Origin: a virus
Strand: one strand, 5' to 3'
DNA length: 64,000 nucleotides
IMG/VR virus record: IMGVR_UViG_3300032050_000024
Location: 62,001 to 126,000 of that record
Made by a program: the position numbers and the translations under genes. Under the pieces are notes generated by a model, which worked only from the letters and a program-made list of their open reading frames with translations, made no database searches and was not told the DNA's origin. Positions 3,812 through 64,000 of this stretch are shown piece after piece (within the stretch, counting starts at the first letter, position 1; the number at the start of each line of letters is the position of its first letter).

Positions 3812-5050
3812 TCAAACCGTAAATGACGTTACTATTGCTGCAATTGAAGCAGAAGTTGCAGCATTAGACAATCGCTGTCCTATTGAGTTTGATGCCGTTA
3901 GGGAAGTAATTGCCATGTTCCATAAGTCTTCTGGTTTTGTTAAAGCTGATCCAGATGTGTTATCTACCGGTACTCCCCATGATACTGAATTTGGATGCGG
4001 AACTGCCATTGAACCGGTTAATTCATTTCCAGGGCCGTAAATTACACCTGCTCTAACATTGGATCCGGAAGGTACTCCGACGACTTGGTCAGGCGAGAAC
4101 AAAGTAATTGTATCGTTTGAGCTAGATACGCCAATCGTGTAACGTGTTGTTACATCATCATATAATCGTACGTTATAACAATATATTGCATTACGTGAAC
4201 CTGAATTGATTAATGGGCCTGAGAATACGTTGGTTGCTGTGGTTGAAGTTGAGGAAACTGCATTAGATGCAGTCGATGCTGCTATTTGTCCTATTACGTT
4301 TATAATACCTGCTGTACTTGAAGCAATTGCTCCCCACAATCTCGATGTTACATTTCCTGTTACATTTATCGTACCTATAGATGAATTTGCAATTGCGCTT
4401 GATACAAGTCCACCAAAGGAATTACTTGCAAGAACATTTCCTGTTACATTAATAACCCCAGTTCCAGAATTTAAAATTGTTTGTGAAGTGCCGGCACCAC
4501 CAGCACTACCCCCTGTTATATTACCCGTAATATTAATAGTACCATTTTGGATATTTGTTATTGCAGTATTACCAGATCCTGCACCTGCAGGAAGTATATT
4601 TCCTACTACATTAATGGTACCGGAGGATAAATTTGATATAGTAGATAATGTTGTATTCCCGGTGCCGTTTAATCCAGATACATCTCCTATTATATTAATA
4701 GTCCCATTCAATATATTATTTATACATCGTTCTTCATTACCACTATTTTGATTTAAAGCAGATGTTATTGTAATACTTTCAGTGTTATAATTTAATATAA
4801 GAATATTTGATGCAACTGTATTTCTAATTAAACTAGCTGATATATTATAATTTCCATATATTTCAATTCTACCTCCTGCTGCTGCACTTCCGGTTGCTGC
4901 TGTTCGTATACTAGTAACTGTAATGTTTTGATCTAACGTTACCGTTTGGTTATTTAAAAACACATCATCAGATGCAGTAGGAATAAGTGACCCAGACCAT
5001 ATTGCTGCGTTACTCCAATTACCTGATGCGATGGGCCATCTATTTGGCAT
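3812..5050 (-). CDS. Tail fibre/adhesin with G8-like N-terminus, paralog 4
   Basis: About 412 residues. The ATG at 5050 is preferred over an in-frame upstream start because it follows AAAGGAAAATAAT and begins just after the stop of the preceding gene. The N-terminus MPNRWPIASGNWSNAAIW, then PTASDDVFLNN and VTLDQNITV resemble G8-type domains (GNWSxxxxW, P-T/A-x-D-D-V, VTLD). The middle is a run of short 'INVTGNV/INITGNI' strands every 20-25 residues, typical of a right-handed beta-helix. The last 100 residues (VRAGVIYGPGNELTGSMAVP, GVPVDNTSGSALTKPEDLW) form a domain shared with the three genes upstream. Probably a tail-tip adhesin or fibre segment that varies host recognition. Confidence 0.8.
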   Translation of the reverse strand: MPNRWPIASGNWSNAAIWSGSLIPTASDDVFLNNQTVTLDQNITVTSIRTAATGSAAAGGRIEIYGNYNISASLIRNTVASNILILNYNTESITITSALNQNSGNEERCINNILNGTINIIGDVSGLNGTGNTTLSTISNLSSGTINVVGNILPAGAGSGNTAITNIQNGTINITGNITGGSAGGAGTSQTILNSGTGVINVTGNVLASNSFGGLVSSAIANSSIGTINVTGNVTSRLWGAIASSTAGIINVIGQIAASTASNAVSSTSTTATNVFSGPLINSGSRNAIYCYNVRLYDDVTTRYTIGVSSSNDTITLFSPDQVVGVPSGSNVRAGVIYGPGNELTGSMAVPHPNSVSWGVPVDNTSGSALTKPEDLWNMAITSLTASNSIGQRLSNAATSASIAAIVTSFTV

Positions 5051-5051
5051 A

Positions 5052-6365
5052 TTATTTTCCTTTAAAGGCAGCAATAGTTGCTGCTGTAGTTTGTACTGTT
5101 GCTATATTTTGTAAACGAGCTCCAATTGTATTGGAACCTGTTAAACTTGATACTGCATACGTTAAAATATCTTGTGGGGTCAATGTAGCAGAACCTGTTG
5201 TTTGATCTACTGGCACTCCATACCGTACAGAACTAGTTGAAGGTACTATCATTGAGCCAGAAAATTGATTCATTGCGCCGTATAAACTTCCACTTCTTAC
5301 ATTAGATGCGTCAGGTAATGTTACGGGATATGTTTGATCATACAATGTTATTGTTTTTGAAATATCATTTGATTCAAATGTATAATATGGTGTTGATCCT
5401 GATAGGATTTGTATTCTTGGAGAATATACTGCATTGGTTCCGTTTGCACTACAAATTAATGGTCCCGAAACTCGCACAGTTGCGGTTGTAGAAGTAGATG
5501 ATACACCTGGATATCCGTTTGATGCATATACAGGACCGATTACATTGATTGTTGATGCTACTGCAGATGAAATACCTACTGCGGTATATCCAGCAAAAAC
5601 ACTACCGGTTATGTTGATTGTTGCAGCTGATAACATGGTAATTGCAGCATTGTTATAACCTCGTAAGTTCCCATTGAAGTTTAATACTCCAGTATTTCCG
5701 TTAATGTTAACAGCCATGTTGTTAGTGCTAGTTCCGAGTATAATTAGATTTCCAGTTACATTAACTTGTGCAATTCCCGTTAACATTGTGATTGGAACAC
5801 CATTTGTAAATGTATATAAATCTCCAACTATACTTGCAGTGCCGGCAAAAATTGCAACACATGTTCCATTTGTATTTCCTATATCTCCATTTGTTCTTAA
5901 ATTTCCAAGTATGAATGCACTACCCGAAGTGACTAATATGCCATAATTTCCCGTAGATCCACCGGGTGCGACGCCGGAAGAAACGCTTCCTGTAACATAT
6001 ATGGTTCCTCCATTAGTAATACGAACACCATATCCATTAGTAACATCGCCGCCTTGTATACTAGAAGAAATATATACCGTATGTGAACCGGTTATAATTA
6101 AAGCAGCAGTTGCATTAGCTGATACAATTCCTGCAGTTGCTCTAGATGCAGTAATGTATATACCATTTGTTGAAATATAATTTCCTCCTGCTACTGCACT
6201 ACCTGATGCTCTATTACTAATACTAGAAACATTGATATTCTGATCTATAGTAACATTGAATCCATTAGCAAATACATCATCAGATGCGGTCGGAAATGTT
6301 GTTCCTCCATTCCATGTAGCTAAGCTACTCCAATTCCCTGATGCTACTGCGTATCTTACTGGCAT
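5052..6365 (-). CDS. Tail fibre/adhesin with G8-like N-terminus, paralog 3
   Basis: About 437 residues from the ATG at 6365, chosen because AAAAGGAAAATTATA precedes it and the upstream gene stops at 6367. Opens MPVRYAVASGNWSSLATWNG, then PTASDDVFANG and VTIDQNINV, the same G8-like block as its neighbours. The middle has about ten beta-helix-like rungs (INGNTGVLNFNGNL, ATINITGSVFAG, STINVIGPVYAS). The C-terminal block (VRSGSLYGAMNQFSGSMIVP, GVPVDQTTGSATLTPQD) is shared across the cluster, and the end (IGARLQNIATV) is helical. No catalytic motif is evident. The shared ends and variable rungs suggest a tandem duplication family with diversifying ligand-binding middles. Confidence 0.8.
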   Translation of the reverse strand: MPVRYAVASGNWSSLATWNGGTTFPTASDDVFANGFNVTIDQNINVSSISNRASGSAVAGGNYISTNGIYITASRATAGIVSANATAALIITGSHTVYISSSIQGGDVTNGYGVRITNGGTIYVTGSVSSGVAPGGSTGNYGILVTSGSAFILGNLRTNGDIGNTNGTCVAIFAGTASIVGDLYTFTNGVPITMLTGIAQVNVTGNLIILGTSTNNMAVNINGNTGVLNFNGNLRGYNNAAITMLSAATINITGSVFAGYTAVGISSAVASTINVIGPVYASNGYPGVSSTSTTATVRVSGPLICSANGTNAVYSPRIQILSGSTPYYTFESNDISKTITLYDQTYPVTLPDASNVRSGSLYGAMNQFSGSMIVPSTSSVRYGVPVDQTTGSATLTPQDILTYAVSSLTGSNTIGARLQNIATVQTTAATIAAFKGK

Positions 6366-6366
6366 A

Positions 6367-7734
6367 TTATAATTTTCCTTTTTCGGCAATTGCAACGGCT
6401 GTAGTTGCAACTGTTGATATGTTACGTAAACGTGCTCCTAAACTTCCCGTTACGGTTAAACTACTTGTTAATGCACTCCATGCATTTTGTGTGTTAAATG
6501 AAGCAGAACCTGTTGTATTGTCTACAGGTACTCCTTTAAGTACAGAACCGGTAGAAGGTATTGCTACTGTTCCTGTGAATTGGTTTGTATCTCCAAATAC
6601 CACACCTGATCTTACATTGGTTATAGCAGGGAAATTACCTGGCCAATTTTGTGTATATAGTGTTCTTTGTTCTGCATATGTTTCTGTGTCAAAAGTCCAT
6701 GTTGTAGTTGACCCGGATATGAGTTGTAGGTTTTGTGCAAATACTGCGTTACGATTATTGACGTTTAAGAATGGTCCTGTTGCTGAAAGAAAATGTGTAG
6801 TTGATGTAAATTGCACTCCCGGAAATACAGCAGAAGCAGATATAGGTCCTCTGATACTGGATGTACCTGCTGAAGTTGATGATATAGCACTTGCACCAGC
6901 AGCTGCAAATACACTTCCGGATATATTAACACTGCATGGATTTACGGTTAAGGATAATGCATTTGCTGTAGATAAAGCATATACACTTCCTGTTATTGTT
7001 ATTGTAGAAGTAGCAGTATTTGTTATCGCAGCATTACTACTTTTAGCAAAAACATTGCCTTTTACATCTAAGTTTACAACTGCTGGGGAAGAAATTGTTA
7101 TCCCTACACCATTAGAAGCTGCTTCGCCTGTAACATCACCTACGATATTAATATTTTTATTTGTATTAACAGCCATTGCCTGACTAGGTGCACCTCCGGT
7201 ATTTCTTAAAAAATTACCTCTGACGCTACCTGATATGTTTAAAGTGCCTCCGCTAATTGTACGAACAATTACCCCGGAATAAACAAATCCTGAAATGCTT
7301 CCTGTTATATTAATAATTCCATTATTTTCTATTGATACTGGGTAACTTACAAGAAATGGGGCAACTTCTAGATTTCCCACGATGTCAGATACTATATTTA
7401 CAGTATCACTTCCAGTTACAATAAGTACGGATGATGTGGTTGAATATGTTACAAAACCTCCATATACAGTTGTTGGGCCTAAATTTCCAGCACCTCCAGT
7501 TAACGGGACAGTGCAAGTAATTGTTCTACTCCCAGTTGTAATAAAACTACCACCTGCTGCTATAACTGGGGATGTAACTGGATGGTTTCTTAAAGTCCGA
7601 GCTGTTATGTCTTGATCTATAAAAACATTAAATCCGTTTGCCCATACATCATCAGATGCAGTAGGAATTATCGAACCACTCCATATTGCGGAGTTACTCC
7701 AATTACCAGAAGATATGGGCCATCTATTTGCCAT
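6367..7734 (-). CDS. Tail fibre/adhesin with G8-like N-terminus, paralog 2
   Basis: 455 residues. MANRWPISSGNWSNSAIWSG and PTASDDVWANGFNVFIDQDI match the N-terminal domain of the flanking paralogs. The body is beta-helix-like (INITGSISGFVYSG, LNISGSVRGNF, VNLDVKGNVFAK, ITITGSVYALS), and the C-terminal domain has VRSGVVFGDTNQFTGTVAIP and GVPVDNTTGSASFNTQNAW. Only two bases separate its stop from the next gene's start, so the four fibres are likely translated from one mRNA. No signal peptide. The product is an inferred virion surface protein. Confidence 0.8.
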   Translation of the reverse strand: MANRWPISSGNWSNSAIWSGSIIPTASDDVWANGFNVFIDQDITARTLRNHPVTSPVIAAGGSFITTGSRTITCTVPLTGGAGNLGPTTVYGGFVTYSTTSSVLIVTGSDTVNIVSDIVGNLEVAPFLVSYPVSIENNGIINITGSISGFVYSGVIVRTISGGTLNISGSVRGNFLRNTGGAPSQAMAVNTNKNINIVGDVTGEAASNGVGITISSPAVVNLDVKGNVFAKSSNAAITNTATSTITITGSVYALSTANALSLTVNPCSVNISGSVFAAAGASAISSTSAGTSSIRGPISASAVFPGVQFTSTTHFLSATGPFLNVNNRNAVFAQNLQLISGSTTTWTFDTETYAEQRTLYTQNWPGNFPAITNVRSGVVFGDTNQFTGTVAIPSTGSVLKGVPVDNTTGSASFNTQNAWSALTSSLTVTGSLGARLRNISTVATTAVAIAEKGKL

Positions 7735-7735
7735 A

Positions 7736-8926
7736 TTACACTTTAAATGATGATATGGTAGCTCCCGTTGTTTGTACAGTAGAAGCTCCGGTTAATAAAT
7801 TTCCTATACTACCCGAGGTAGTTATGTTTTGTGTTGCAACGTTAAACATATCTTGTGGGGTTAAAACGGCAGAACCTGTTGTATTGTCCGTTGCTACTCC
7901 TGCTTTTACTGTTGTTGGATCAGGCATTGCAAGTAAGCCAGTTAATCCAAAGTTATATGTTACACCTCGTCGTACATTGTTTTCGCGTGGTACTCCAGGT
8001 AATGTATTTGAAGTATATAATGTTTTTACGACACCTGCTGTTTCTGTATCGAAAGTCCATTGAGATGAAGTACTTAACATTTGTATACGATATGCATAAA
8101 CTGCATTCCATGAACCTGTGTTATAAAATGGACCAGTAAATAGGTTTGTTGCACTAGTACCTGTAGATTGGACTCCATTAGTTAATATACTCGATGAAAT
8201 TGTACCTGATATAATTAATATACTATTAGAAGATAATCCTACGGCTGAGCCTGTTCGTGCAAGGCAAGTTCCTTGTATGCTTAATGTTCCTAAACTAGTT
8301 TTATTTATCCCAAAAGATGCTGCATTTCTAGACCCAGTTACATTTCCAAGAACATATATATTATTAATAGAACCAATACTTTGTATTCCGTGACCCGATG
8401 TAACGGTAGTATCAGAATACACACTACCCGTTATATATATATTTCCATTTTCAGTTTGGTTTATTCCAAATGATTGAGCACCTGTTGGTCCAGCTACATT
8501 TCCAGAAACAATTAAATTACCTGTTGATGAATGTTGAATTCCATGGAATAAAGAACCATTACCTGCAGTAACATTTCCTATTATATTAATACTTGATGCA
8601 TCAGATAATGTTAATGCTCTAGTTTGTCCTCCAGTAACGTTTCCTACGATTGTAGCTGAATTTGATTGGGAAATTTGTGTTGTTGGATTAGTTGCAGCAC
8701 CACCGATTATATTAGCAGTAACCGTGATCCCATTATTCAAAATAAAAGTTCCAGCATTCACACCAACACCAGTACTTCTTAAACTAATTATTGTAACATT
8801 TTGATCTATTGTAACAGTTTGACCATTAGCATATACATCATCAGATGCAGTAGGTAATCCCAAGCCACCATTCCATATTGCTGAGTTGCTCCAATTGCCT
8901 GATGCTATTGCTGTTCTGTTTGGCAT
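7736..8926 (-). CDS. Tail fibre/adhesin with G8-like N-terminus, paralog 1
   Basis: 396 residues, the first translated and shortest of the four tandem paralogs. MPNRTAIASGNWSNSAIWNG, then PTASDDVYANGQTVTIDQNV, give the shared N-terminal block; the beta-helix-like middle contains INIIGNVTAGNG, NIYITGSVYSD and NIYVLGNVTGS rungs; the C-terminal block contains VRRGVTYNFGLTGLLAMPDP and GVATDNTTGSAVLTPQDMF. It starts immediately after the stop of the 96-residue gene upstream. The C-terminal '(V/L)A(M/I)P..V..GV..DNTTGSA.LTPQD' block is one I associate with phage tail-fibre-type proteins; the receptor is unknown. Confidence 0.8.
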   Translation of the reverse strand: MPNRTAIASGNWSNSAIWNGGLGLPTASDDVYANGQTVTIDQNVTIISLRSTGVGVNAGTFILNNGITVTANIIGGAATNPTTQISQSNSATIVGNVTGGQTRALTLSDASSINIIGNVTAGNGSLFHGIQHSSTGNLIVSGNVAGPTGAQSFGINQTENGNIYITGSVYSDTTVTSGHGIQSIGSINNIYVLGNVTGSRNAASFGINKTSLGTLSIQGTCLARTGSAVGLSSNSILIISGTISSSILTNGVQSTGTSATNLFTGPFYNTGSWNAVYAYRIQMLSTSSQWTFDTETAGVVKTLYTSNTLPGVPRENNVRRGVTYNFGLTGLLAMPDPTTVKAGVATDNTTGSAVLTPQDMFNVATQNITTSGSIGNLLTGASTVQTTGATISSFKV

Positions 8927-9217
8927 TTACAATCCTTTTTCTATTATAAATTGTTGAATAGTTCCAAGTATTTGATATGCTGCGTTTTCAGCTGGTATAT
9001 CTTCGGAGGCAAATACATCCAAATACACTACAGGACGATCATGTCCTTGTAAAACATCTGGTTTTCCTCCCTCTAATTCTCGATACGGTGTTAATCGCAT
9101 TGCAACACTTGCACCAACTTCCGTTTCCTTTACCAAAGGTGAAATTGATAGATTTACAGTGTAGTATGGGTATTCAACGCCATCTACTACAATTGGGTTA
9201 GCGGATTGAATTGGCAT
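8927..9217 (-). CDS. Small conserved protein in the fibre cluster, unknown
   Basis: 96 residues with mixed alpha/beta character: MPIQSANPIVVDGVEYPYYT, a SISPLVKETEVGASVAMRL strand pair, RPVVYLDVFA, and a C-terminal helix YQILGTIQQFIIEKGL. No catalytic or membrane motif. It lies between the giant fibre and the first G8-like fibre, touches the latter's start codon, and is preceded by an ATATTTATA motif with AAAGG only a few bases before the ATG. It is therefore the promoter-proximal gene of the G8-like fibre transcript. It could be a fibre chaperone or attachment subunit, inferred from position alone. Confidence 0.7.
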   Translation of the reverse strand: MPIQSANPIVVDGVEYPYYTVNLSISPLVKETEVGASVAMRLTPYRELEGGKPDVLQGHDRPVVYLDVFASEDIPAENAAYQILGTIQQFIIEKGL

Positions 9218-17806: not shown

Positions 17807-19468
17807 TTAAAGAGTTTCTAATCCACGTACATATACTTTACCGTAGAACTCTGGACGAACCACTTTCTTAGCGTAACGTGTCATAACACCTTTACGTGGA
17901 GTGAAATTAACTGGATCGTATACCAATGGAGTCATGATAAGTGGAATATACGGACTAAATACAGCACCTGTTTCAAGGAATTGACTTCCTCTGAAGCCCA
18001 TAAGGATGATGTTTTCTTTCATGTATGGGTTTTTGTATACCGTATAACGATTATTGATTGCACCAATTTTTTGAACACCGGCAGCAAATTCTAATTTAGT
18101 ACCATCTGTGTCTGCAGCAAATCCCGGGATAGACTCAAGAATAGTTGCTACTGCAGGAGATGTAACTAAGAAATTAGCACCACCACGTAATGTTTTTTGG
18201 TGAATCTTGTTACTTACTTTTTGAAGTTTAGTACCAAGAGTCTGGAACCATCCGCCTTGAGTGTTATAGAATCCACCATTCGTAGCAGTTTGTGCTAAGA
18301 AATTAGTACCTGTCCAAATTTCATTGTTAATAGCTGACCAATACTCAGTTGTTGGAGCTGCTGCAATCAACATATCAAGGATTTCAAGATCGATTTCCAT
18401 TGATACATACTCAGAAAGCATTGAAGTCAATTCAGCTTCAGCATCAATTGAGTGATAAGCGTTCAAATCTTGAGCAAACTCAGGTGTCCAAACTGCTTTC
18501 AACTTACGTGTTTTAGCAACGATTGGCTCTGATTGAAGCTCTAGGTTCAATTCTGGGATGTCAATATCTGTACCATCATCGATACCTGTATTAGCACCTG
18601 ATCCTTTAAATGGATTAGTATCTTCAAAATCACCTCTTGTAATATCAGTTGGTTGTTTGCTATATGTTACTGTATAATTAGCAGTACCATTTAAGTTTGC
18701 AGACGCTGAAACTACAAATTCAATTTTACCAGTTGACGCATTAAATTTAGTAAATGCAGGAACATTCATTGCAGTGGTTAAATTTGAACCAGATGCTAAT
18801 GTAAATGATCTAACTGCAGTTAAATCTGCGCTTGTTAATGAACCAGTTGATACATAAACAACTGAATATCCTGTTAATGCATTTGTATATGCAGAATCAA
18901 AATTAACTGAACCTGAACCTGCAGATGCAGCTGAAGCAGTTGTTGCAGCAACGCCAGTCGCAGTTGCATCATTAATTGAATACCCGAAACGACCTGCGCC
19001 ATAAAGACCTCCTGTTGGATCGCCAGTTGTATTAGTTACACCGAATAATGAATCATCAGATTCAGGTGAACCAAATGGATGCCCGTTAGTAGATACTGGA
19101 TCTGCTTGATCTGAAGTAAATCCTGGCTGAGCTGTACCATATTTAAAGTCTAAGTAAAATACTAGACCTGATGGCAAGTTCATTGGTTGTACTGATACAA
19201 ATTCTTTTGCAGCAAATTCAGCAAAGATACGACGTACCAATGGAAGTGCTACACCAGCCCACTCTTCAGATCCTTCTGCTGTACCTGTTTGTGAAGCTTC
19301 TTTTACTAATTGCCTTGCTTGGTTTTCAAGCAATTGAGCCATACCTGCTCTTTCTGTCTCATTTCTAAGACCTTCTAAAAGTCCTGTTCTTTCCCACTTT
19401 GCAACGGTTGCAACTGATGCAGCACGTTGAGAAGCGTCTGGACTTTGTAATAATGAATTTAAACTCAT
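17807..19468 (-). CDS. gp23: Major capsid protein (T4 gp23 family)
   Basis: 553 residues (T4 gp23 has 521). N-terminus MSLNSLLQSPDASQRAASVA and a helical pro-region with WERTGLLEGLRN, LLENQARQLVKEA; then the family block VALPLVRRIFAEFAAKEFVS and VQPMNLPSGLVFYLDFKYGT. Later landmarks are ARTKLKAVWTPEFAQDL-like sequence, ELTSMLSEYVSMEIDLEIL and GVMTRYAKKVVRPEFYGKVY near the end, all typical of the HK97-fold T4-type capsid. L-x-E sites in the first 65 residues could be where the gp21 protease removes the pro-region. AAAGGAG lies 8 nt before the ATG. An insertion rich in Ala/Ser/Gly/Thr (about residues 160-260) may be surface exposed. Confidence 0.95.
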   Translation of the reverse strand: MSLNSLLQSPDASQRAASVATVAKWERTGLLEGLRNETERAGMAQLLENQARQLVKEASQTGTAEGSEEWAGVALPLVRRIFAEFAAKEFVSVQPMNLPSGLVFYLDFKYGTAQPGFTSDQADPVSTNGHPFGSPESDDSLFGVTNTTGDPTGGLYGAGRFGYSINDATATGVAATTASAASAGSGSVNFDSAYTNALTGYSVVYVSTGSLTSADLTAVRSFTLASGSNLTTAMNVPAFTKFNASTGKIEFVVSASANLNGTANYTVTYSKQPTDITRGDFEDTNPFKGSGANTGIDDGTDIDIPELNLELQSEPIVAKTRKLKAVWTPEFAQDLNAYHSIDAEAELTSMLSEYVSMEIDLEILDMLIAAAPTTEYWSAINNEIWTGTNFLAQTATNGGFYNTQGGWFQTLGTKLQKVSNKIHQKTLRGGANFLVTSPAVATILESIPGFAADTDGTKLEFAAGVQKIGAINNRYTVYKNPYMKENIILMGFRGSQFLETGAVFSPYIPLIMTPLVYDPVNFTPRKGVMTRYAKKVVRPEFYGKVYVRGLETL

Positions 19469-19501: not shown

Positions 19502-20563
19502 TTAAATTAATCCTGCCAATTTTTTCCAACGATTTGCCATTTCAAATCCTTCAGATAAAATTTGCGTTGTTTGTTGTGATGGGGCAGTGGTTCTATGTGG
19601 ACGAGATGCGGCTGATTCTTTAACCATTCTTCTTTTTTGAGTTGGTTTATTAAAGCTTTCAGCTAATGTAGCAAATACTAATTTTGCTTCTCGTGTTGAA
19701 ACTGCTCTATCAAAGTTTTCAATAACTTTCATTTTTTGACTTTCGTTCAATTCAAAGTTACGGAACAACTTGTTTGTATAAAGAAGTTTTGCATTAAGAA
19801 GATTAACTTCATTAATAACTGACTTAAGATACTTAACAGTTTTGTATGCTTCTTTAAGTTGTTGGTCTTGCTGGGCAACTGTAGCTTCTAATTCTTCATT
19901 TTCTTTAGCTAATAGTTCCGGATCTTGTTCAGTAGGCTCCGTTGCCATTTCTTCTTCGCGAAGGATTGCTTCAATGATTGAGTCAATTGATTCATTTGTA
20001 TAATCATACTCAGCATCCATTTCCATTCCTTCTGGAAGTTCTTCATCATACCCTTCCATAGCAGGTTCTGTAGTTGGTTCAGTCATTGGTTCATCCATAG
20101 ACGGTTCTGTTTCTTCTAATTCTCTAAGAATTTCTTCTAGATTTAGATCATCTTCTTCTGCACCCGCTTCCATTTCTTCATCACCCATTTCCATTTCTTC
20201 TGCACCCGCTTCCATTTCTTCATCGCCACCTAACATACCTGTTAAGTCATAATCTCCGTCATCATTAAAATCTAATCCGACGTTTACTGAAGTAGGGAAA
20301 TCTTCCATTCCAGCTTCTGCACCTGCTTCCATTCCAGCTTCTGCACCTGCTTCCATTCCAGCTTCTGCACCTGCTTCCATTCCAGCTTCTGCATCCATGT
20401 CCATTTCTTCATCTTCAATTTCTGCAATCAATTTCGAGTGAAGCATACTTTCTAAACGTGGAGCGAAAGCTTCTTGTAATGCAATTTTTGCGTTTGCTAA
20501 TGCTGTTTCTTTAACTGCTTTAGCATCAGCGATTGCTTGTTTTAGCAAATCTGATTTTGCCAT
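19502..20563 (-). CDS. Prohead core scaffold protein, gp22-like
   Basis: 353 residues, very acidic. Helical N-terminus (MAKSDLLKQAIADAKAVKET), an acidic repeat region of EAGAEAGM units (about residues 55-90), more Glu/Asp/Met-rich sequence to about residue 210, then a coiled coil (LAKENEELEATVAQQDQQL) and a basic C-terminal tail with RMVKESAASRPHRTT. Position immediately upstream of the capsid gene, acidity and a helical C-terminal half fit the T4 gp22 scaffold, which forms the prohead core and is degraded by gp21. Several L-x-E sites are available. AAGGAG lies 7 nt before the ATG. Confidence 0.8.
   Translation of the reverse strand: MAKSDLLKQAIADAKAVKETALANAKIALQEAFAPRLESMLHSKLIAEIEDEEMDMDAEAGMEAGAEAGMEAGAEAGMEAGAEAGMEDFPTSVNVGLDFNDDGDYDLTGMLGGDEEMEAGAEEMEMGDEEMEAGAEEDDLNLEEILRELEETEPSMDEPMTEPTTEPAMEGYDEELPEGMEMDAEYDYTNESIDSIIEAILREEEMATEPTEQDPELLAKENEELEATVAQQDQQLKEAYKTVKYLKSVINEVNLLNAKLLYTNKLFRNFELNESQKMKVIENFDRAVSTREAKLVFATLAESFNKPTQKRRMVKESAASRPHRTTAPSQQTTQILSEGFEMANRWKKLAGLI
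20307..20394 (-). repeat. 24-nt tandem repeat in scaffold gene
   Basis: Unit ATTCCAGCTTCTGCACCTGC plus TTCC (plus strand) occurs three full times (20307, 20331, 20355) and once in part (20379). It encodes GMEAGAEA. Near-perfect identity implies recent slippage expansion. Confidence 0.9.
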
Positions 20564-21965: not shown

Positions 21966-22595
21966 TTATATCCTACATTTTCCATCTTCACATAATATTG
22001 ATGTAATGATGCTGTTTACGTTAGCGTATTTATTTATTGTTATATTTTTATTTGTTGATTCATTCATCTTTGTAGGCCGCATAAAAGCTCCATGTGTTGA
22101 AGGATTTGAAACGAAGTCCCAACAAATTAATTCAAAATCTTCTTGTACTTCTACTACGCCTTCATTACGTAATTCTTTAACAGAACCTAATCCTCTACTA
22201 GATATACCTAATGTAATACCAGCTTTAAAAAGTGATTTTAAAATATTACCTGACGGGGTATCTAAAATTTGAACAGCTCCGCATAAATCATCACCTTTCC
22301 ACCATATTTTTAAAACATTATGTGAAACGTTATTCAAGTTAACAACAGATGATTCTGGATGATCTAATTCTCCTAATGCTCTATGTTGATCAATATATTC
22401 TTTTTGATATCGATTACATTCTCGTTCTAAAATACGTTTAGGATATACTCTTCCATTTTGATTTTTTGCACCTGCTCTTTGTAAAACTCCTTGCACAACA
22501 AAACCGCCAGGTATTCCATATGCAGCACCAGATTGTTCATTTAATGAACCTACGGGTTTGAATGGCATATATTCTACTATTAACGCTTTTGACAT
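21966..22595 (-). CDS. gp21: Prohead core protease (T4 gp21 family)
   Basis: 209 residues (T4 gp21 has 212). Serine protease of the herpesvirus-assemblin-like fold. Family motifs: GVLQRAGAKNQNGRVYPKRI (36-55), RALGELDHPESS with likely catalytic His79, and GITLGISSRGLGSV with the catalytic Ser at 132 or 133; ELICWDFVSNPSTHGAFM closes the domain. It matures the prohead by cleaving scaffold, capsid and packaged internal proteins after L-x-E or I-x-E in T4. TTAGGAG precedes the start. Placed directly after the 244-residue gene, one base between them. Its presence matters for interpreting the leader-bearing array at 57-64 kb. Confidence 0.92.
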   Translation of the reverse strand: MSKALIVEYMPFKPVGSLNEQSGAAYGIPGGFVVQGVLQRAGAKNQNGRVYPKRILERECNRYQKEYIDQHRALGELDHPESSVVNLNNVSHNVLKIWWKGDDLCGAVQILDTPSGNILKSLFKAGITLGISSRGLGSVKELRNEGVVEVQEDFELICWDFVSNPSTHGAFMRPTKMNESTNKNITINKYANVNSIITSILCEDGKCRI

Positions 22596-22596
22596 A

Positions 22597-23331
22597 TTAT
22601 TCTCCTAATGCTCTTACTCGTTCTGAAATTTTTATTAATCGTTCTGAAATTTTTGTTAATGCAGTATTTACAGATTTTCCATAGCCGTCTCGAGCCATTC
22701 CAGATTCTGTTTTTAATCTTGCTGTATTTGAAACTAGTTCTTCAACTTGGCGTAAACGTTTAGCTACTTCTTTAATAGTATGTTTTATTTTTGATTCTGG
22801 AGTTATTTTTGGATCACCAGTAGCAAATTGTTTATATGACTCTATAAGTTGTTCGTATTTTGATTCCATCATTTCATGAACTTGATTTCTTTTTTTAATT
22901 CCAGACCAATCATATTCTACATCAAAATCTTCATGCATATCTGCAGATCTATCATCAAATTTTTTATATTTTTTTGCAAATGGAACAGATGGATATTGAT
23001 ATTTTGCATGTTGCCATTTAGCATCATCAGAATATGCAAATTTATCCATATATTCTTCTTGATCTGATTCAGGCCGTTGTGATTGTCCAGGTTTATATGT
23101 TGCCGGGGTTCGAACAGATTCGTGAACTCGTTCATAACCTAAAACTTCAACGGTATCATCATCTGCCGGAGAGAATGCATTTGGGGTCATATATGCACCT
23201 GCACCTCCTGAAGTAGAAATTTCATCCAATTCTTCTTCTGTTAATTCATTATTAGCAATACGATTAACAATATCATCAGTTTTATCGATAGCTTCAAATG
23301 CTTCTTCTATTTGTTGTAAGAATGTTTTCAT
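22597..23331 (-). CDS. Helical head-region protein, unknown
   Basis: 244 residues. Opens MKTFLQQIEEAFEAIDKTDD, similar in style to head-core targeting leaders, then NELTEEELDEISTSGGAGAY with MTPNAFSP, a segment I associate with phage head-region proteins of this type. The middle is charged and Tyr-rich (AKYQYPSVPFAKKYKKF). The C-terminal 90 residues are a coiled coil (EVAKRLRQVEELVSNTARLK). Overlaps the upstream gene by 4 nt (ATGA) and precedes the protease. Function unassigned; a core or portal-associated role is plausible. Confidence 0.7.
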   Translation of the reverse strand: MKTFLQQIEEAFEAIDKTDDIVNRIANNELTEEELDEISTSGGAGAYMTPNAFSPADDDTVEVLGYERVHESVRTPATYKPGQSQRPESDQEEYMDKFAYSDDAKWQHAKYQYPSVPFAKKYKKFDDRSADMHEDFDVEYDWSGIKKRNQVHEMMESKYEQLIESYKQFATGDPKITPESKIKHTIKEVAKRLRQVEELVSNTARLKTESGMARDGYGKSVNTALTKISERLIKISERVRALGE

Positions 23332-39479: not shown

Positions 39480-40025
39480 TTACCAATCAACTAATACCAT
39501 TTTTCCGTTCCACATCATCATGTTATCGGAACTAAAATCTAAATCTAAATCAAATTCTTCAATTCCAATTTTTTGTATATCTCGCTGTAATGCACGTATA
39601 AAATTAACTAATTTAGTATTAGTATTACGAGCACCATCTGCATCTAAAAAATCAAATATTGAAACTTCTCCGCCTTCGCGTCGTGCATAATCTCCGTAAC
39701 GTTTCATGAATTCATCAATCATTTGTCTGTCAGAATCTAGCAGTATATCTGCATTTGCTACTATAAACATATGTTCACGTTCATTTACGTAATATACAGG
39801 AATAAATGTAGTAAATTCAGACCAACGACCTACAATAATTTTAGCTACTTCAAATTCATCTCGTTCTGTAGTAACTTTAAATACTTTATCTTCTCCATCT
39901 ATTTCATATACACGAGCATTATCTCCGCTTCCTATAAAACGGAATTGTTTATTTCGTATTTTATCCAATAATCGATTAATTTCTTTTTCAGATAATTCTC
40001 GTAAAAGTTTCTTTAAACGTATCAT
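39480..40025 (-). CDS. Small protein-kinase-fold protein
   Basis: 181 residues. FRFIGSGDNARVYEIDGEDK (28-47) is a glycine-rich loop with the following VFKVT lysine (K50); FDLDLDFSSDNMMMWNGKMV (158-177) has the D-x5-7-N arrangement of the catalytic loop of kinase/aminoglycoside-phosphotransferase folds (D161 or D163, N168), and LVDW at the very end takes the place of the metal-binding 'DFG/IDW' Asp (D180). The chain stops right there, so the C-lobe is minimal. N-terminal MIRLKKLLRELSEKE resembles head-targeting leaders. It could phosphorylate host proteins or be a pseudokinase. Overlaps the lectin-like gene by 4 nt. Confidence 0.72.
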   Translation of the reverse strand: MIRLKKLLRELSEKEINRLLDKIRNKQFRFIGSGDNARVYEIDGEDKVFKVTTERDEFEVAKIIVGRWSEFTTFIPVYYVNEREHMFIVANADILLDSDRQMIDEFMKRYGDYARREGGEVSIFDFLDADGARNTNTKLVNFIRALQRDIQKIGIEEFDLDLDFSSDNMMMWNGKMVLVDW

Positions 40026-57022: not shown

Positions 57023-57757
57023 ATGAAAAATATTTTAGCAGAAAACATGTTAAGATTTGGTACTAAAAATTTATCTGAACAGACAAAATTAATTTTAACA
57101 GAAGACATATCAGAATTTAATAATGTAACAAACGCAATACAAACATCATTAGATAATTTTAATACTTCAGCAGAAACTGCATATGGAAAAGGAAATGTAT
57201 GGGTATTAAAACAAACATCAAAACATTTTCCGCGGACAGACTATCAAACATTTTATTGGATAATTTATATAACTAACCCAAAAACTGGTAGTACTGCAAG
57301 CCATAGTCATGTAGGACATTCGACCCCGAACACATTTGGTAAATTTTGGATCTTAAGACCAGGCCATGAAGATGCGAAAGAAAGACTGATTTATAAAAAA
57401 ATATTTCAAATGAATAAATCAACTACTGGACATGCTGACGCAACGCAGTTATTTGACGTATGTGAATATGATGCTAATAGTGGAAAAGCTCCAACATGGG
57501 CAGATACTAATGCAGCATTAAGTAATCTAGCTACCGGTTTCGATACATTAGCAAAAGACGCACTCGATTATACGACTGATAAACATGGCAATAAACTTAA
57601 ACCATGGGATAAAACACCGATGCTTAACACTAGCAAAGCATTGACTGAGTTTGGTCCAAATCTTGTTCAAAATATTAAAGAAGTATTTAATTCACTAAAA
57701 CTAGCTCCAACTACTCTAGAAGGTAAAAAATCATGGAAAGGAATGAAAACAGTATAA
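57023..57757 (+). CDS. Leader-array protein 1 (MKNILAEN family, body A)
   Basis: 244 residues. The leader MKNILAENMLRFGTKNLSEQ (1-20) followed by TKLILTEDISEF is almost identical, in protein and DNA, to the next gene. The body starts at about residue 40, with YGKGNVWVLKQTSKHFPRTD, FYWIIYITNP and a C-terminal IKEVFNSLKLAPTTLEG-KKSWKGMKTV. L-x-E sites in the leader: LAE, LSE, LTE. No signal peptide, membrane segment or catalytic motif. I infer a head-targeting leader on an internal protein; the body fold is unknown. First plus-strand gene after the long minus block. Confidence 0.8.
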   Translation: MKNILAENMLRFGTKNLSEQTKLILTEDISEFNNVTNAIQTSLDNFNTSAETAYGKGNVWVLKQTSKHFPRTDYQTFYWIIYITNPKTGSTASHSHVGHSTPNTFGKFWILRPGHEDAKERLIYKKIFQMNKSTTGHADATQLFDVCEYDANSGKAPTWADTNAALSNLATGFDTLAKDALDYTTDKHGNKLKPWDKTPMLNTSKALTEFGPNLVQNIKEVFNSLKLAPTTLEGKKSWKGMKTV

Positions 57758-57774
57758 ATAAAAAAAAGAACAAC

Positions 57775-58434
57775 ATGAAAAATATTTTAGCAGAAAACAT
57801 GATTCGATTCGGAACCAAAAATTTATCCGAACAGACAAAATTAATTTTAACAGAAGACATATCAGAATTTAAGAATGTAACAAACGCAATACAGCCGTTG
57901 TTGGATACTTTTAATAAAGAGTGTCCATGGACACTTACAGTTACCCCAACTATCGATTCATGGAATGATACTCAAGGAAATGCTCAAACAATGTTCTATT
58001 GGGAGATTGATTTTAATAATACTGCAGTCGGAAAAACACCGGTGAATTTTTGCAAATTATCAGTTATTAGGAATGGAATTGAAAAAGATATGGGAAATGC
58101 AGTTATAAATAAACGTTTTGAAATTAATTCAAAAGGAATTGATGGGAAATATGATCAAACGGTATGTAGATATATGGCTAATTCTAATGAAGCACCAAAA
58201 TGGAATGATACTATTACATCTAAAGCAATTGAAAATATGACAATTAGTTTTCGAACTTCAGCCGGTGATTCAAAACGTGGAGTTGATCAAGATCAATTGA
58301 GAAAATCAGCCGATGCAGTAGCAAATAATGGAGCTACATTAATTTTAGGTTTAAAAGAAGTATTTAATTCAGTTAAAATTTCCCCAACTATAGAACCGTT
58401 TAAATCAAAATGGAAAGGAATGAAAACAGTATAA
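57775..58434 (+). CDS. Leader-array protein 2 (MKNILAEN family, body A)
   Basis: 219 residues from the ATG at 57775; an in-frame upstream ATG overlaps the previous gene's end and would bury the leader. Leader MKNILAENMIRFGTKNLSEQ and LILTEDISEFKNVTNAIQ match gene 1 closely, then the bodies diverge (CPWTLTVTPTIDSWNDTQGN, FYWEIDFNN) and converge again at LKEVFNSVKISPTI...SKWKGMKTV. A tandem duplicate of gene 1 with a fast-diverging middle. Followed by a strong terminator. No known domain. Confidence 0.8.
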   Translation: MKNILAENMIRFGTKNLSEQTKLILTEDISEFKNVTNAIQPLLDTFNKECPWTLTVTPTIDSWNDTQGNAQTMFYWEIDFNNTAVGKTPVNFCKLSVIRNGIEKDMGNAVINKRFEINSKGIDGKYDQTVCRYMANSNEAPKWNDTITSKAIENMTISFRTSAGDSKRGVDQDQLRKSADAVANNGATLILGLKEVFNSVKISPTIEPFKSKWKGMKTV

Positions 58435-58487: not shown

Positions 58488-58943
58488 TTATTCTAAAATT
58501 TCATATCTAACTAATGTAGTTGTATCATCTAACGGATTATAAAAATATACCATTGGATGAAATGAATTATTCAAAGAAAATTTAAAAGTCTTTGTAATTA
58601 TGGGCAGATAATGACCATTTACCCATTCATAATGATTAAAATCAAATGTTATAGAATTTCCAACATGTTTACGATTTAGCATATTTTCTTGTGAGCCAAA
58701 GAAATCATTTTCATCATATGTTATTATGTAACCTAAATATTCATTGTCAGGATCATAATTTACAACAACAGTTTGTTTGTAATCTTTTTGAATGGTATTG
58801 AAACTGTTTGAAATTACATCATTGAATTTTTTTAAGCCTCGAGCTTGGTATGATGTATAGCTTATGATGTTGAATTGTTGGATGGTTTGTGCAAATCCGG
58901 TGATATTAATTGCTAATACAATTATTAAAAATAAACGTTTCAT
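58488..58943 (-). CDS. Secreted protein 1, unknown
   Basis: 151 residues from the ATG at 58943, which begins a signal peptide MKRLFLIIVLAINITGFAQ with a Bacteroidota-style FAQ end; a longer in-frame start upstream would destroy it. Mature part is beta-rich (VVVNYDPDNEYLGYIITYDE, SITFDFNHYEWVNGHYLPI, TTTLVRYEIL). No Cys lipobox, no enzyme motif. Transcribed away from the leader gene at 59059; its upstream sequence is repeated at the other secreted gene (61745). May act in the host envelope. Confidence 0.78.
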   Translation of the reverse strand: MKRLFLIIVLAINITGFAQTIQQFNIISYTSYQARGLKKFNDVISNSFNTIQKDYKQTVVVNYDPDNEYLGYIITYDENDFFGSQENMLNRKHVGNSITFDFNHYEWVNGHYLPIITKTFKFSLNNSFHPMVYFYNPLDDTTTLVRYEILE

Positions 58944-58945
58944 TT

Positions 58946-58988
58946 TCTTATTATTTAATTGGTTAATTATATTAGTATTATATGAAAA
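58946..58988 (-). repeat. 43-bp leader repeat, copy 1
   Basis: Identical to 61748-61790. Minus strand reads TTTTCATATAATACTAATAT, then AATTAACCAATTAAATAATA-AGA, directly before a signal-peptide start codon. Contains TATAAT-like boxes, so it may be a host-type promoter plus untranslated leader. Confidence 0.85.
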
Positions 58989-59010
58989 ATAACTCATATT
59001 TCAAAATCAT

Positions 59011-60718: not shown

Positions 60719-61237
60719 TTAATCTACAACCATTATAGCAATTAATTTATAATCATTACCATCAAAATGTGTTGTAATACCTAAACCAATTTTAGTTACA
60801 TCGACTTTAGACATATTTTTTTTATGACCTGCAGAATTAATCCAATTGGTTACTATTTCTTCTGGTATCGTTTTAAAAAGTTGGCCGTCTAATGCCCAAA
60901 TCCATGAATTAACTGCATGAGTATAATAAATATTTTCAGCTTCAATTCCATTCTTTTGTATATCAGAGTGTTTAATTTCAAAATTCATACAATTATATGA
61001 AACATTTTTAGCATATATATTTAATATAGAATCAGTTTGTAATTGATTTAGATTATTTTTAATTCGAAATTTATTTATTTCTTTGATTGTTTCAAAAGAC
61101 AAACTATCAAAATCGATATTATTATAAATTTTGATAGATGAATTTATTAACATTTTCATTTGCATATCTTCATCAACTACTTGAGAAAATATTGAAAATG
61201 ATGTTATTATCGATGTGATTAAAAATAAACGTTTCAT
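60719..61237 (-). CDS. Secreted CAP-domain protein
   Basis: 172 residues from the ATG at 61237, which gives the signal peptide MKRLFLITSIITSFSIFSQ. The mature part fits the CAP/SCP (YkwD-like) superfamily: EINKFRIKNNLNQLQTDSIL ('iN..R......l..d..L...A'), YAKNVSYNCMNFEIKHSD, EAENIYY, IVTNWINSAGHKKNMSK ('W..S.gH..n...'), VTKIGLGITTHFDGNDYKLI. CAP proteins occur in bacterial envelopes and spores; enzymatic activity is not established. An envelope-modifying or superinfection role is possible. It begins 8 nt after the upstream secreted gene ends. Confidence 0.83.
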   Translation of the reverse strand: MKRLFLITSIITSFSIFSQVVDEDMQMKMLINSSIKIYNNIDFDSLSFETIKEINKFRIKNNLNQLQTDSILNIYAKNVSYNCMNFEIKHSDIQKNGIEAENIYYTHAVNSWIWALDGQLFKTIPEEIVTNWINSAGHKKNMSKVDVTKIGLGITTHFDGNDYKLIAIMVVD

Positions 61238-61244
61238 TTTTTTA

Positions 61245-61745
61245 TTATTTAATTGTAACATAATCACTCACTTTTCCTCTGCATAAATCAACTGGTTCAT
61301 CATTGATAAAAATATCCCAACACCACCAATAAATAAACTTAGGTTGTTTCTTATGCATTGGATTTTTTCTCATATCTAAAACTAAATAACAATCAATCAT
61401 TTGACCTTCATGATGAGCATACATGGCATCTCTTTTTTCGGTAACGGTAATAGTATAAATGCTATCTTTAAATGCAATCTTTTTGATAGGCAAAGTATCA
61501 TAAGGCAAATTATTTTTAATTCTAAAAACCTTTTTTGCTTTTTTATCTATAACTAAACGAAGATCGATTGGATCATATATTTGCTGATATGGAAGTAAAT
61601 TTGTATTCTTAATCATGTTGTGGACTGAATCTTTGCCATATACAGAAAACATACTTACTTGAGACAATGTAACTTCAATTACATTTTGTGCGTTGCCGAT
61701 AACGCTGATTGCTAATAATGCAATACCTAATACTAACTTTTTCAT
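61245..61745 (-). CDS. Secreted protein 2, unknown
   Basis: 166 residues. Signal peptide MKKLVLGIALLAISVIGNAQ. The mature part is beta-rich with charged strands: PIDLRLVIDKKAKKVFRIKN, AFKDSIYTITVTEKRDAMYA, FIYWWCWDIFINDEPVDLCR and a short end GKVSDYVTIK; two Cys near the C-terminus and one at DCYLV. No family recognised. Shares its 43-bp upstream leader with secreted protein 1. Forms a two-gene unit with the CAP gene. Confidence 0.78.
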   Translation of the reverse strand: MKKLVLGIALLAISVIGNAQNVIEVTLSQVSMFSVYGKDSVHNMIKNTNLLPYQQIYDPIDLRLVIDKKAKKVFRIKNNLPYDTLPIKKIAFKDSIYTITVTEKRDAMYAHHEGQMIDCYLVLDMRKNPMHKKQPKFIYWWCWDIFINDEPVDLCRGKVSDYVTIK

Positions 61746-61857: not shown

Positions 61858-62499
61858 ATGATTAAATTAAAATCTTTATTGTTAGAACAAGATGAAAACT
61901 ATTGGAATAATGTAAAAGAAACAATAAATAGTAAAGATGGATCATCATATAAACAAGTAACTAAAGAGTATCCGTCTGTACCATTGTTAGATCCAAAAAC
62001 AGGTAAACAATTTGCATATGCTGGCGATGCTGTAGCTGGAAAACTAGAATGGGAACCGTTATATATCGGAGCTTGGTTGAATATAAGTTACGCTCCAAAA
62101 GGTAATAAAGGAAAAACATTTAATGAATCTAATTTTTTTATGTATAATTTAGCATTTTTTCTTGCTACCAAGCCTGGAATTACTTATTCAACAATGAATT
62201 CAGCTCGAGGTGTTGAAATATTTTACATAAACTGTCGACGATTGGGTACTGGAAAATTTGAAGCAAATATGAAATTAAAAACATATAAACCTAATGCATT
62301 ATTATATTTAATTTCAAATAAAGATGATACTAATAAAGATACATATATACAAGGAAATGATCTTATAACGCCAAATGGGTTCTTATCAAATCCTAGTGGT
62401 TATGCGGCTTCATTAGTTTCAACAATTAATACTGAAATTGCAAAGGCTGGGTTTCCGCAATTACCAAATGCATTCCAACAAGGTTTAGTAACGGTTTAA
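61858..62499 (+). CDS. Leader-array protein, short-leader form (body B)
   Basis: 213 residues. Starts MIKLKSLLLEQDENYWNNVK: the leader is cut to nine residues plus an L-L-E site, which aligns with the end of the long leaders (LILQEQNDEYW in the next gene). The body (YPSVPLLDPKTGKQFAYAGD, LEWEPLYIGAWLNISYAPKG) and C-terminus (INTEIAKAGFPQLPNAFQQG-LVTV) are homologous to the next two genes. No catalytic motif. It heads the second leader-array transcript behind the repeated promoter block. Confidence 0.78.
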   Translation: MIKLKSLLLEQDENYWNNVKETINSKDGSSYKQVTKEYPSVPLLDPKTGKQFAYAGDAVAGKLEWEPLYIGAWLNISYAPKGNKGKTFNESNFFMYNLAFFLATKPGITYSTMNSARGVEIFYINCRRLGTGKFEANMKLKTYKPNALLYLISNKDDTNKDTYIQGNDLITPNGFLSNPSGYAASLVSTINTEIAKAGFPQLPNAFQQGLVTV

Positions 62500-62514: not shown

Positions 62515-63201
62515 ATGAAAAATATTTTAGCAGAAAATATGATTCGATTTGGAACTAAAAATTTATCTGAATCAGCAAAATTGATATTGCAAGAACAAAA
62601 TGATGAATATTGGGCAAATGTTCCACTTTGGGATCCAAAAAGTAAAACAAAACGTAAATATATAGATTATCCTGTTCAACAATTAAAAGATCCAGAAACG
62701 GGATTAACATTAGCATTAAATGATTCTACAGGGCAAAAAAGTAATATGTTATCTATTAGTGCTAGATTACATTTGAATTATAATGAATCTGTAGATTATG
62801 CAATTGATGCTAGTAAATTACTAACTTCTAAATTTAGTTATTATGCAGAATTTTATTTGCAATCAGATGCAGCTACAACGCCGGCTTTAATATCATCTGT
62901 AAATGGCGGGTTACTAAAATCTGGTAAATTTTTCTCATATCCAATGACATACGTAAAAGATTGGATAGCAACAACTAAATCTGAGCCAGTATATCCTGCT
63001 AAAGATTCAAATGATACAACATATCTAGGTAAACGATCGAACGATATATATAATAGACTTGGTAATTTTATAAAATATAGATTACTTCCAGATTATACTA
63101 AATATACAACATTAAATGATATTGTAACAAAAATGAATACAGAATTAGCTGCTGCAGGTTATCAAGAATTTACAAAACTATCAAACGAATCACCTAAATA
63201 A
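62515..63201 (+). CDS. Leader-array protein (MKNILAEN family, body B)
   Basis: 228 residues. Leader MKNILAENMIRFGTKNLSES, then AKLILQEQNDEYWANVPLWD. Body: VQQLKDPETGLTLALNDSTG, LSISARLHLNYNESVDYAID, GKFFSYPMTYVKDWI, and IVTKMNTELAAAGYQEFTKL. It shares the 'LKDP.TG', 'sg.fs' and 'MNTELA.AGY' landmarks with the neighbouring genes, although overall identity is low. L-x-E sites: LAE, LSE, LQE. Spacer TAATAAAAAGATATAAAA before the ATG recurs before the last gene. Confidence 0.78.
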   Translation: MKNILAENMIRFGTKNLSESAKLILQEQNDEYWANVPLWDPKSKTKRKYIDYPVQQLKDPETGLTLALNDSTGQKSNMLSISARLHLNYNESVDYAIDASKLLTSKFSYYAEFYLQSDAATTPALISSVNGGLLKSGKFFSYPMTYVKDWIATTKSEPVYPAKDSNDTTYLGKRSNDIYNRLGNFIKYRLLPDYTKYTTLNDIVTKMNTELAAAGYQEFTKLSNESPK

Positions 63202-63212
63202 AAGATATAAAA

Positions 63213-63902
63213 ATGAAAAATATTTTAGCAGAAAACATGATTCGATTCGGAACCAAAAATTTGTCTAAATCAGTAAAATTGATATTGCAAGAACAAGATA
63301 ATAATGCATGGAAGCCATATGTAAAATATGGAAATGCCGATGATGGTTCGACTGGTACTTTTGAATATAGAAAAGTATATACGGATACGTTAAAAGATGC
63401 ATCAGGTAAAGAATATTTTTATATTGGTCAGCCAAATAACAAAGTAACATTACGAGCCGAAGTAGTTGGACGTTATGTACAATCTGGCCCATATGCCGAT
63501 AATAATCCTAATCTTAAACCAACAGACAAAAAATATGATTTTTCATATAATATAAAATTAATATTACAGCCAGCAACCCAAAAATCAATTGATCCGGTAG
63601 CTGTATATAATATAATAGGAACTAATTTAGCTAATGGTAAATTTCAAATTAATACTACTTATAATCAAACAATAGCAGATTGGTTTTCAAAACTTGGTAA
63701 TGCTGCATGGGAATCTAATTTAAAAAGTATGCATGTAGCTAGTACCGAACCTAGAACAAGCATACAAGGTTTCTTTAGTAGCACTTTTTCAAAAAGCCCA
63801 GGTACATACTTTGCTCCATGGCAAACAATTAGCACCGAATTAGCTAAACTAGGATATCCGGAGGTTCCAAGTGTATTACAGCAAGGTGCAGTAACGGTTT
63901 AA
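63213..63902 (+). CDS. Leader-array protein (MKNILAEN family, body B)
   Basis: 229 residues. Leader MKNILAENMIRFGTKNLSKS (LSE site replaced by LSK), then VKLILQEQDNNAWKPYVKYG. Body has VYTDTLKDASGKEYFYIGQP, VTLRAEVVGRYVQSGPYADN, YNIKLILQPATQKSI and NGKFQINTTYNQTIADWFSK; the C-terminus ISTELAKLGYPEVPSVLQQG-AVTV matches the short-leader protein. No signal peptide or enzyme motif. Tandem duplicate with a divergent middle. Confidence 0.78.
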   Translation: MKNILAENMIRFGTKNLSKSVKLILQEQDNNAWKPYVKYGNADDGSTGTFEYRKVYTDTLKDASGKEYFYIGQPNNKVTLRAEVVGRYVQSGPYADNNPNLKPTDKKYDFSYNIKLILQPATQKSIDPVAVYNIIGTNLANGKFQINTTYNQTIADWFSKLGNAAWESNLKSMHVASTEPRTSIQGFFSSTFSKSPGTYFAPWQTISTELAKLGYPEVPSVLQQGAVTV

Positions 63903-63917
63903 TAAAAAGATATAAAA

Positions 63918-64000
63918 ATGAAAAATATTTTAGCAGAAAACATGATTCGATTTGGAACTAAAAATTTATCCGAATCGGCAAAATTAATTTTAACGGAGCA
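63918..64000 (+). CDS. Leader-array protein (partial, body off the edge)
   Basis: 27 codons to the right edge: MKNILAENMIRFGTKNLSES followed by AKLILTE. The first part is like the body-B genes (LSESAKL), while LILTE is like genes 1 and 2, so it looks like a mosaic leader. It shows that the array continues past the window. Confidence 0.75.
   Translation, partial: MKNILAENMIRFGTKNLSESAKLILTE

Follow-up and report, generated by a model that had tools for sequence, protein, structure and literature searches.

The plus-strand gene group that starts at position 57023 and extends beyond the end of the 64,000-nucleotide viral DNA stretch analysed here (the window, bases 62001-126000 of the 130,639-base record IMGVR_UViG_3300032050_000024) encodes proteins with a common N-terminal leader, which is very likely a capsid-targeting propeptide removed by the prohead protease. 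This reading, put forward in the original prediction as a capsid-targeting and gp21-cleavage signal, is favoured because the motif (L/I)xE is specifically enriched in the leader, the same phage encodes a gp21-type protease of the Peptidase_S77 (S77) family, further genes carry short leaders in the register of phage T4, and one leader is exchanged for another exactly at LxE|Q. The absence of a signal peptide and the co-occurrence of leader and protease lend additional support. Packaging would follow from targeting and removal, and delivery of the cargo into the host, judged by analogy with T4, is rather probable.

A common leader on an array of genes

In the first gene, the leader comprises the 27 residues MKNILAENMLRFGTKNLSEQTKLILTE (window 57023-57103; the translation of 57023-57142 reads MKNILAENMLRFGTKNLSEQTKLILTEDISEFNNVTNAIQ) and contains the (L/I)xE sites LAE, LSE and LTE at residues 5-7, 17-19 and 25-27, respectively. 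The array follows the general pattern MKN-ILAEN-M(L/I)-RFG-TKN-LSE-...-ILTE or ILQE. This long leader is found on six genes of the phage, starting at 57023, 57775, 59068 (a variant), 62515, 63213 and 63918, while the seventh gene of the group, 61858, bears the 10-residue leader MIKLKSLLLE in its place (Table 1). The three sites that had been predicted are all present in 57023, but the second is altered to LSK in 63213 and to LTV in 59068, the three-site form being common but not universal.

That the leader acts as a secretion or lipoprotein signal can be practically dismissed. The opposite strand does carry secreted-type genes interspersed with the array, but the leaders are devoid of a hydrophobic core: as had been claimed, nothing resembling a signal peptide is apparent, the highest 9-residue hydropathy across 93 leaders being 1.84 vs 2.41-3.74 in three signal-peptide-like open reading frames (ORFs) beside the array. 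Moreover, the leader contains no Cys.

Specificity of the predicted cleavage motif

Since the search pattern had already fixed the first site, the motif test was applied to the leader tail (+4 to +22 beyond KN); each cargo cluster was represented by a single protein (n=50), and shuffles were drawn from the same tail residues. The motif (L/I)xE occurs in the tail of 44/50 cargo types vs a shuffled mean of 15.2 (maximum 27 of 2000; z 9.2), and (L/I)xE with one of the residues Q, A, S, G, T, D or N behind it in 40/50 (shuffled 7.0; z 13.8). The eleven motifs used as controls in the tail, namely Ex(L/I), (L/I)xD, (L/I)xK, (L/I)xN, (L/I)xQ, (L/I)E, (L/I)xxE, (L/I)xxxE, (V/M/F)xE, AxE and SxE, remained near or below chance, and (L/I)xE itself showed no enrichment at +22 to +40, +40 to +58 or +60 to +78. 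The predicted function of the LxE triplets as cleavage signals gains weight from this enrichment, which the control motifs do not share. With regard to the first site, the core N-M-x-R-F-x-x-K-N was searched without requiring LxE at loci outside the leader-pattern set, and 21/21 proteins carry LxE immediately upstream, with A, S or Q at P2.

This motif-specific pattern is not expected of a generic amphipathic helix. It bears on an alternative that regards the leader as a peptide docking at some other stage of assembly, on the tail, the baseplate or a host factor, and the LxE motifs as a by-product of such a helix. Helices were placed by AlphaFold2 (AF2) at residues 4-12 and 19-32 with low confidence, and some short-leader proteins are tail-lysozyme-like. 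Nevertheless, such a docking function is improbable, because ExL, LxD, LxK, LxxE and LxxxE are not enriched while (L/I)xE alone is, and because the leader swap described below falls exactly at a site.

The prohead protease and its probable head substrates

The ORF at 21966-22595, originally named as a gp21-type protease, proved to be one in profile searches (Peptidase_S77, PF03420, E=8e-34; phrog_207, E=2e-55). In its vicinity, a T4-type major capsid protein (MCP; phrog_138), a portal protein (phrog_213, E=3e-59) and an acidic scaffold-like protein are encoded. The MCP of relatives features QLVKE|(A/S) at the apparent position of T4 gp23 processing, where Flavobacterium phage immuto has QIVSE|A, and the scaffold-like protein keeps four sites (Table 1), its other LxE triplets not being conserved in relatives. 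Owing to the conservation of these MCP and scaffold sites, the consensus of the protease is likely (L/I/V)xE followed by a small residue. Peptidase_S77 was found in 9/10 long records with the leader, each of which contains 2 to 5 leader ORFs; the tenth record, in which S77 was not detected, is about 100 kb long and may be partial.

One leader, many cargoes

Among 2.9 million viral contigs, a DNA pattern for AENMxRFG matched 85 stretches, and about 93 distinct full leader proteins were obtained from related viral contigs once the frames were read. Clustering by blastp of these sequences with the leader removed yielded 50 clusters, so that one and the same leader stands before about 50 types of unrelated cargo. 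When 84,980 genomes of bacteria and archaea were scanned, the leader pattern gave 57 matches and no host link, since none of them is a real N-terminal leader. The host is likely a member of the Bacteroidota; the nearest isolates include Flavobacterium phage immuto and also Microcystis phage Mel-JY01.

Across phages, the leader amino acids are constant while the codons vary, the invariant Arg being encoded by AGA, CGA, CGT, CGG, AGG and CGC and the Gly by all four codons. Because the codons vary freely under invariant residues, selection acts on the leader peptide and not on the DNA. The opposite proposition would have conservation act on the DNA, be it as a tract of duplication or gene conversion or as an element of translation initiation, and would give the peptide no role. 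It could appeal to the copies within one genome, which are near-identical over the first 27 bases, but it is contradicted by this codon usage and is very improbable.

The modularity of the leader is most evident in cargo family B, which is common to the short-leader gene 61858 and the long-leader genes 62515, 63213 and 63918 (61858 vs 63213 cargo: Smith-Waterman score 140 vs a shuffled maximum of 72). The alignments begin at LLLE|QDENYW, ILQE|QNDEYW and ILTE|QDQEYW, and hence the bond at which cleavage is predicted, LxE|Q, is also where two different leaders meet one and the same cargo family.

The variety of cargo also has to be weighed against a variant in which targeting and leader cleavage take place, yet the cargoes serve as structural parts of the prohead core, helping with size or scaffold in the manner of T4 gp67/gp68, and are kept in the head or degraded rather than acting as host effectors. 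T4 core proteins are likewise gp21 substrates (PMC9026906), and two large families that recur (clusters 0 and 1, 400-700 aa) do bear the leader. A structural role is nonetheless unlikely, given that 50 clusters in 93 proteins amount to an extreme cargo turnover and that families A and B have almost no relatives, unlike a conserved scaffold.

Short leaders in the T4 register

In T4, the capsid-targeting sequence (CTS) consists of the first ten residues of IPIII, of which residues 4 and 7 function in targeting, while processing involves 8 and 10 (PMC9026906). A strict rule derived from it, hydrophobic residues at 4, 7 and 8 and E at 10, was applied to the complete set of 979 N-termini from this genome, immuto and four relatives. 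In the right register 49/979 N-termini matched, as opposed to 0 to 11 at any other shift, which corresponds to 7 to 13 matches in each of the five genomes other than immuto and 4 in immuto itself, vs about 0.3 per genome after shuffling. Applied to T4, the rule retrieves IPII, IPIII and gp24, all of which are known gp21 substrates, and it gave no match in crAss001 and FCL-2. A few false matches, judged by eye, still pass (an acetolactate-synthase-like and an RNase-H-like protein); a looser rule, which admitted false positives such as ribonucleotide reductase, was abandoned in favour of the strict one.

The short form MIRLKxLLxE is present on 7 genes of this genome, including window 39480-40025 and 61858. 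The large cargo set that had been proposed therefore exceeds the array, because these short leaders head further genes. Relatives fuse both forms in a single leader, e.g. MIKLKNILAE|NMRRFGTKNLSE, so that the leader of the array can be understood as a CTS-like beginning, extended by a stretch that holds one or two additional sites.

Relation to known systems

The internal proteins of T-even phages are diverse, and the CTS is their only common part (PMC3012670). Like the gp21-processed CTS of T4 IPII and IPIII, the leader described here is a removable N-terminal element with (L/I)xE sites of the phage's own S77 protease, common to otherwise unrelated proteins, and its short form has the same 10-residue register. 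In contrast, no sequence relation to MKTYQEFIAE was found, the array leader is 26-34 residues long with two to three sites, more cargo genes are present per genome, and the phage lineage is a different one. The leader of T4 IPI, MKTFKEFTSTTTPVSTITE|A, is likewise a longer one and holds an IxE|A site, taken as its cleavage point, but it has this single site at residue 19 and is not common to several cargoes. Also in T4, the N-termini of gp24 and Alt (MAKINELLRE and MELITELFDE) are 10-residue leaders that fit the 4-7-8-10 rule, but belong to single genes and not to a multi-gene cargo array.

A comparable arrangement is known from SPN3US, where the paralogues gp53 and gp54 have an identical leader with more than one candidate protease site (PMC5694885). 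The ejection proteins of SPN3US and phiKZ thus resemble the array in their N-terminal propeptides and in the identical multi-site leader on paralogues, while they differ in the protease motif (AxE/SxE), the giant-phage lineage and the paralogous nature of the cargo. Also related is Flavobacterium phage immuto (NC_055915), whose MCP is 54.7% identical and which encodes an S77 protease. It has short leaders as well as two other leader families with two sites each, yet is devoid of the ENMLRFG leader.

These two families, MKKQILSEQFKRMQKLAGIITE and FLVENKLTxNSxxLKE, occur on unrelated proteins with two LxE sites each. The first of them, ILSExFxRMQKLAGIITE, is common in viral contigs and comprises 27 N-terminal cases on 27 unrelated cargoes, with a site just past LAGI in 25/27 (11 expected) and before RMQ in 19/27 (6.9 expected). 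Their existence suggests a general design. Examples of ILSExFxRMQKLAGIITE are L285, L296 and L311 in viral contigs and L012:1675 and L014:15061 in immuto; FLVENKLTxNSxxLKE is found on three immuto proteins with barely alignable remainders (L012:7631, L012:8632 and L013:43806).

Proposed course of packaging and delivery

On the model of T4, the conserved first part of the leader, LAENMLRFGxKN, would dock leader-bearing proteins on the prohead scaffold core late in infection. The S77 protease would then cut behind (L/I)xE, using at least one of the two or three sites, whereby the leader is clipped into small peptides and the mature cargo would lie free in the head at the time of DNA packaging, to exit with the DNA at infection. 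The leader is a modular unit, with fast cargo turnover behind it and exchange of short and long forms exactly at the predicted cut site.

Several observations weigh against this course. At P1' of the last site Q prevails (20/44), whereas the MCP and scaffold sites mainly have A, S or G, although LQE|Q is present in the scaffold of one relative (G002), and the third site is absent in a few leader proteins (e.g. L055). With E at position 7, the MKNILAE of 57023 lies outside the T4 10-residue register, being three residues shorter than the MIKLKNILAE of relatives. A tblastn search with the 57023 leader in 50,697 phage records returned no credible or relevant match, nor did tblastn in these records reveal homology between the leader and the T4 CTS, a comparison with little power for a 10-residue peptide. 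The short-leader lysozymes discussed below could be lysis enzymes rather than cargo, and a search for virion proteome or cleavage data on these phages found none. Hence, the likeness to T4 targeting sequences holds for the short leaders, for MIKLKNILAE and, by reading, for the MSNFEKILAE of 59068, all of which fit the 10-residue register, but extends neither to sequence relation nor to MKNILAE.

Cargo proteins and neighbouring genes

Most cargo is without a known domain, and searches of Pfam and PHROGs with the array cargoes gave no match. For the 59068 protein, an AF2 model built with eight relatives reached a usable predicted local distance difference test (pLDDT) score of 73.6. Its best match in the PDB was to RmpM, in the OmpA-like domain (probability 0.96, E 0.037), and no more than suggests an OmpA-like cargo. 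The model of the family B cargo 63213 (pLDDT 43.5) was not used for the cargo fold, and a PDB profile search of cluster 0 returned nothing credible.

The short-leader genes include lysozymes of two families, PF18013 in this phage and PF00959 in relatives, some with LysM, which might be packaged enzymes or lysis enzymes. Both kinds are headed by the same MIxLKxLLxE leader (G000 8208-9038, L187:7942-8826 and L188:14467-15246), as if the enzyme had been swapped behind a retained leader. A kinase-like glycine-rich motif was noticed by eye in window 39480-40025 (G-x-GDN-x-RVYEI) and in L206:1296-2024; a PDB profile search of this short-leader family yielded nothing credible and hence no profile support. 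The by-eye impression of G000 44098 as an Alt-like ADP-ribosyltransferase was discarded, as neither Pfam nor PHROGs supports it.

With respect to the window itself, the mechanical ORF call for 57733-58434 starts at 57733 and overlaps the preceding gene; the position of the leader makes 57775 the likely true start. The signal-peptide-like genes interleaved with the array on the minus strand lie at window 58488-58997, 60719-61267 and 61245-61745, and 60719-61267 encodes a CAP-domain protein (PF00188, E=4e-9). Four tandem paralogues of 396-455 aa at window 3812-8926 (minus strand) start like MANRWPISSGNWSNSAIWSG and are perhaps virion surface or fibre proteins.

Table 1. Leaders, leader-bearing genes and head genes in the window (SW, Smith-Waterman score).
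Feature	Position	Strand	Remarks
Major capsid protein (phrog_138, E=4e-68)	17807..19468	-	Predicted processing QLVKE|(A/S), retained in relatives
Scaffold-like prohead core protein	19502..20563	-	LQE|A 45/45, IIE|(A/S) 44/45, LxE|A 45/45, LSE|G 45/45 retained
gp21-type prohead protease (Peptidase_S77)	21966..22595	-	Own N-terminus also has IVE/LNE sites
Protease-adjacent protein, CTS-like N-terminus MKTFLQQIEE|A	22597..23331	-	Site retained in 31/54 relatives
Short-leader protein MIRLKKLLRE, 181 aa	39480..40025	-	M1, I2, L8, E10 invariant among 6 aligned relatives
Long leader of the 57023-57757 ORF, 27 residues	57023..57103	+	Predicted cuts after E7, E19, E27
Cargo gene with leader, 244 aa, family A, no known domain	57023..57757	+	
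Long leader, second family A gene	57775..57855	+	Start 57775, not upstream ATG 57733
Cargo gene with leader, 219 aa, family A	57775..58434	+	Post-leader homology to 57023, SW 266 vs shuffle maximum 48
Variant long leader MSNFEKILAENMLRFGPKNLTVENQFNLHRLVE, 33 residues	59068..59166	+	E at 10 and 33
Cargo gene with leader, 529 aa	59068..60657	+	Eight relatives from other phage contigs; weak likeness to an OmpA-like fold in the C-terminal half
Short 10-residue leader MIKLKSLLLE	61858..61887	+	T4 CTS register
Family B cargo gene with short leader	61858..62499	+	Cargo homologous to long-leader 63213, 62515, 63918
Long leader MKNILAENMIRFGTKNLSESAKLILQE	62515..62595	+	
Family B cargo gene, 228 aa	62515..63201	+	
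Long leader MKNILAENMIRFGTKNLSKSVKLILQE	63213..63293	+	Second site lost (LSK)
Family B cargo gene, 229 aa	63213..63902	+	
Leader and start of further leader-bearing gene	63918..64000	+	Record G000 125918-126541, 207 aa; runs past window end

Significance

The principle is a strategy of T-even phages and not new; the novelty lies in a leader that is unrelated, longer and multi-site, in the many cargoes over which it has spread and in the leader exchange at the cut. In the literature searched, no report of internal proteins of this phage lineage was found, nor any paper on capsid targeting in metagenomes or one printing these leader letters. It may tentatively be proposed, at slightly less than an even chance, that T4-like phages of Bacteroidota and their neighbours possess a general addressing system of several unrelated leader classes (MIRLKxLLxE; LAENMLRFGxKNLSE...LxE; ILSExFxRMQKLAGIITE; FLVENKLTxNSxxLKE), all built around prohead-protease sites, which would load at least a dozen proteins of rapid turnover per phage, lysozymes and OmpA-like ones among them, into the head for delivery to the next host.

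For this family of uncultured lake phages, the same removable label is attached to many unrelated proteins. Their loading into the head is probable, and they may accompany the DNA into the next host. If so, the leader would constitute a sequence tag by which the packaged and delivered protein set of uncultured T4-like phages could be read from DNA, and about a dozen featureless hypothetical genes per genome would become candidates for host-takeover or anti-defence proteins, for which T4 IPI is a precedent. Moreover, it would represent a second, unrelated solution to capsid targeting and would help to find the part of the scaffold that reads the tag.
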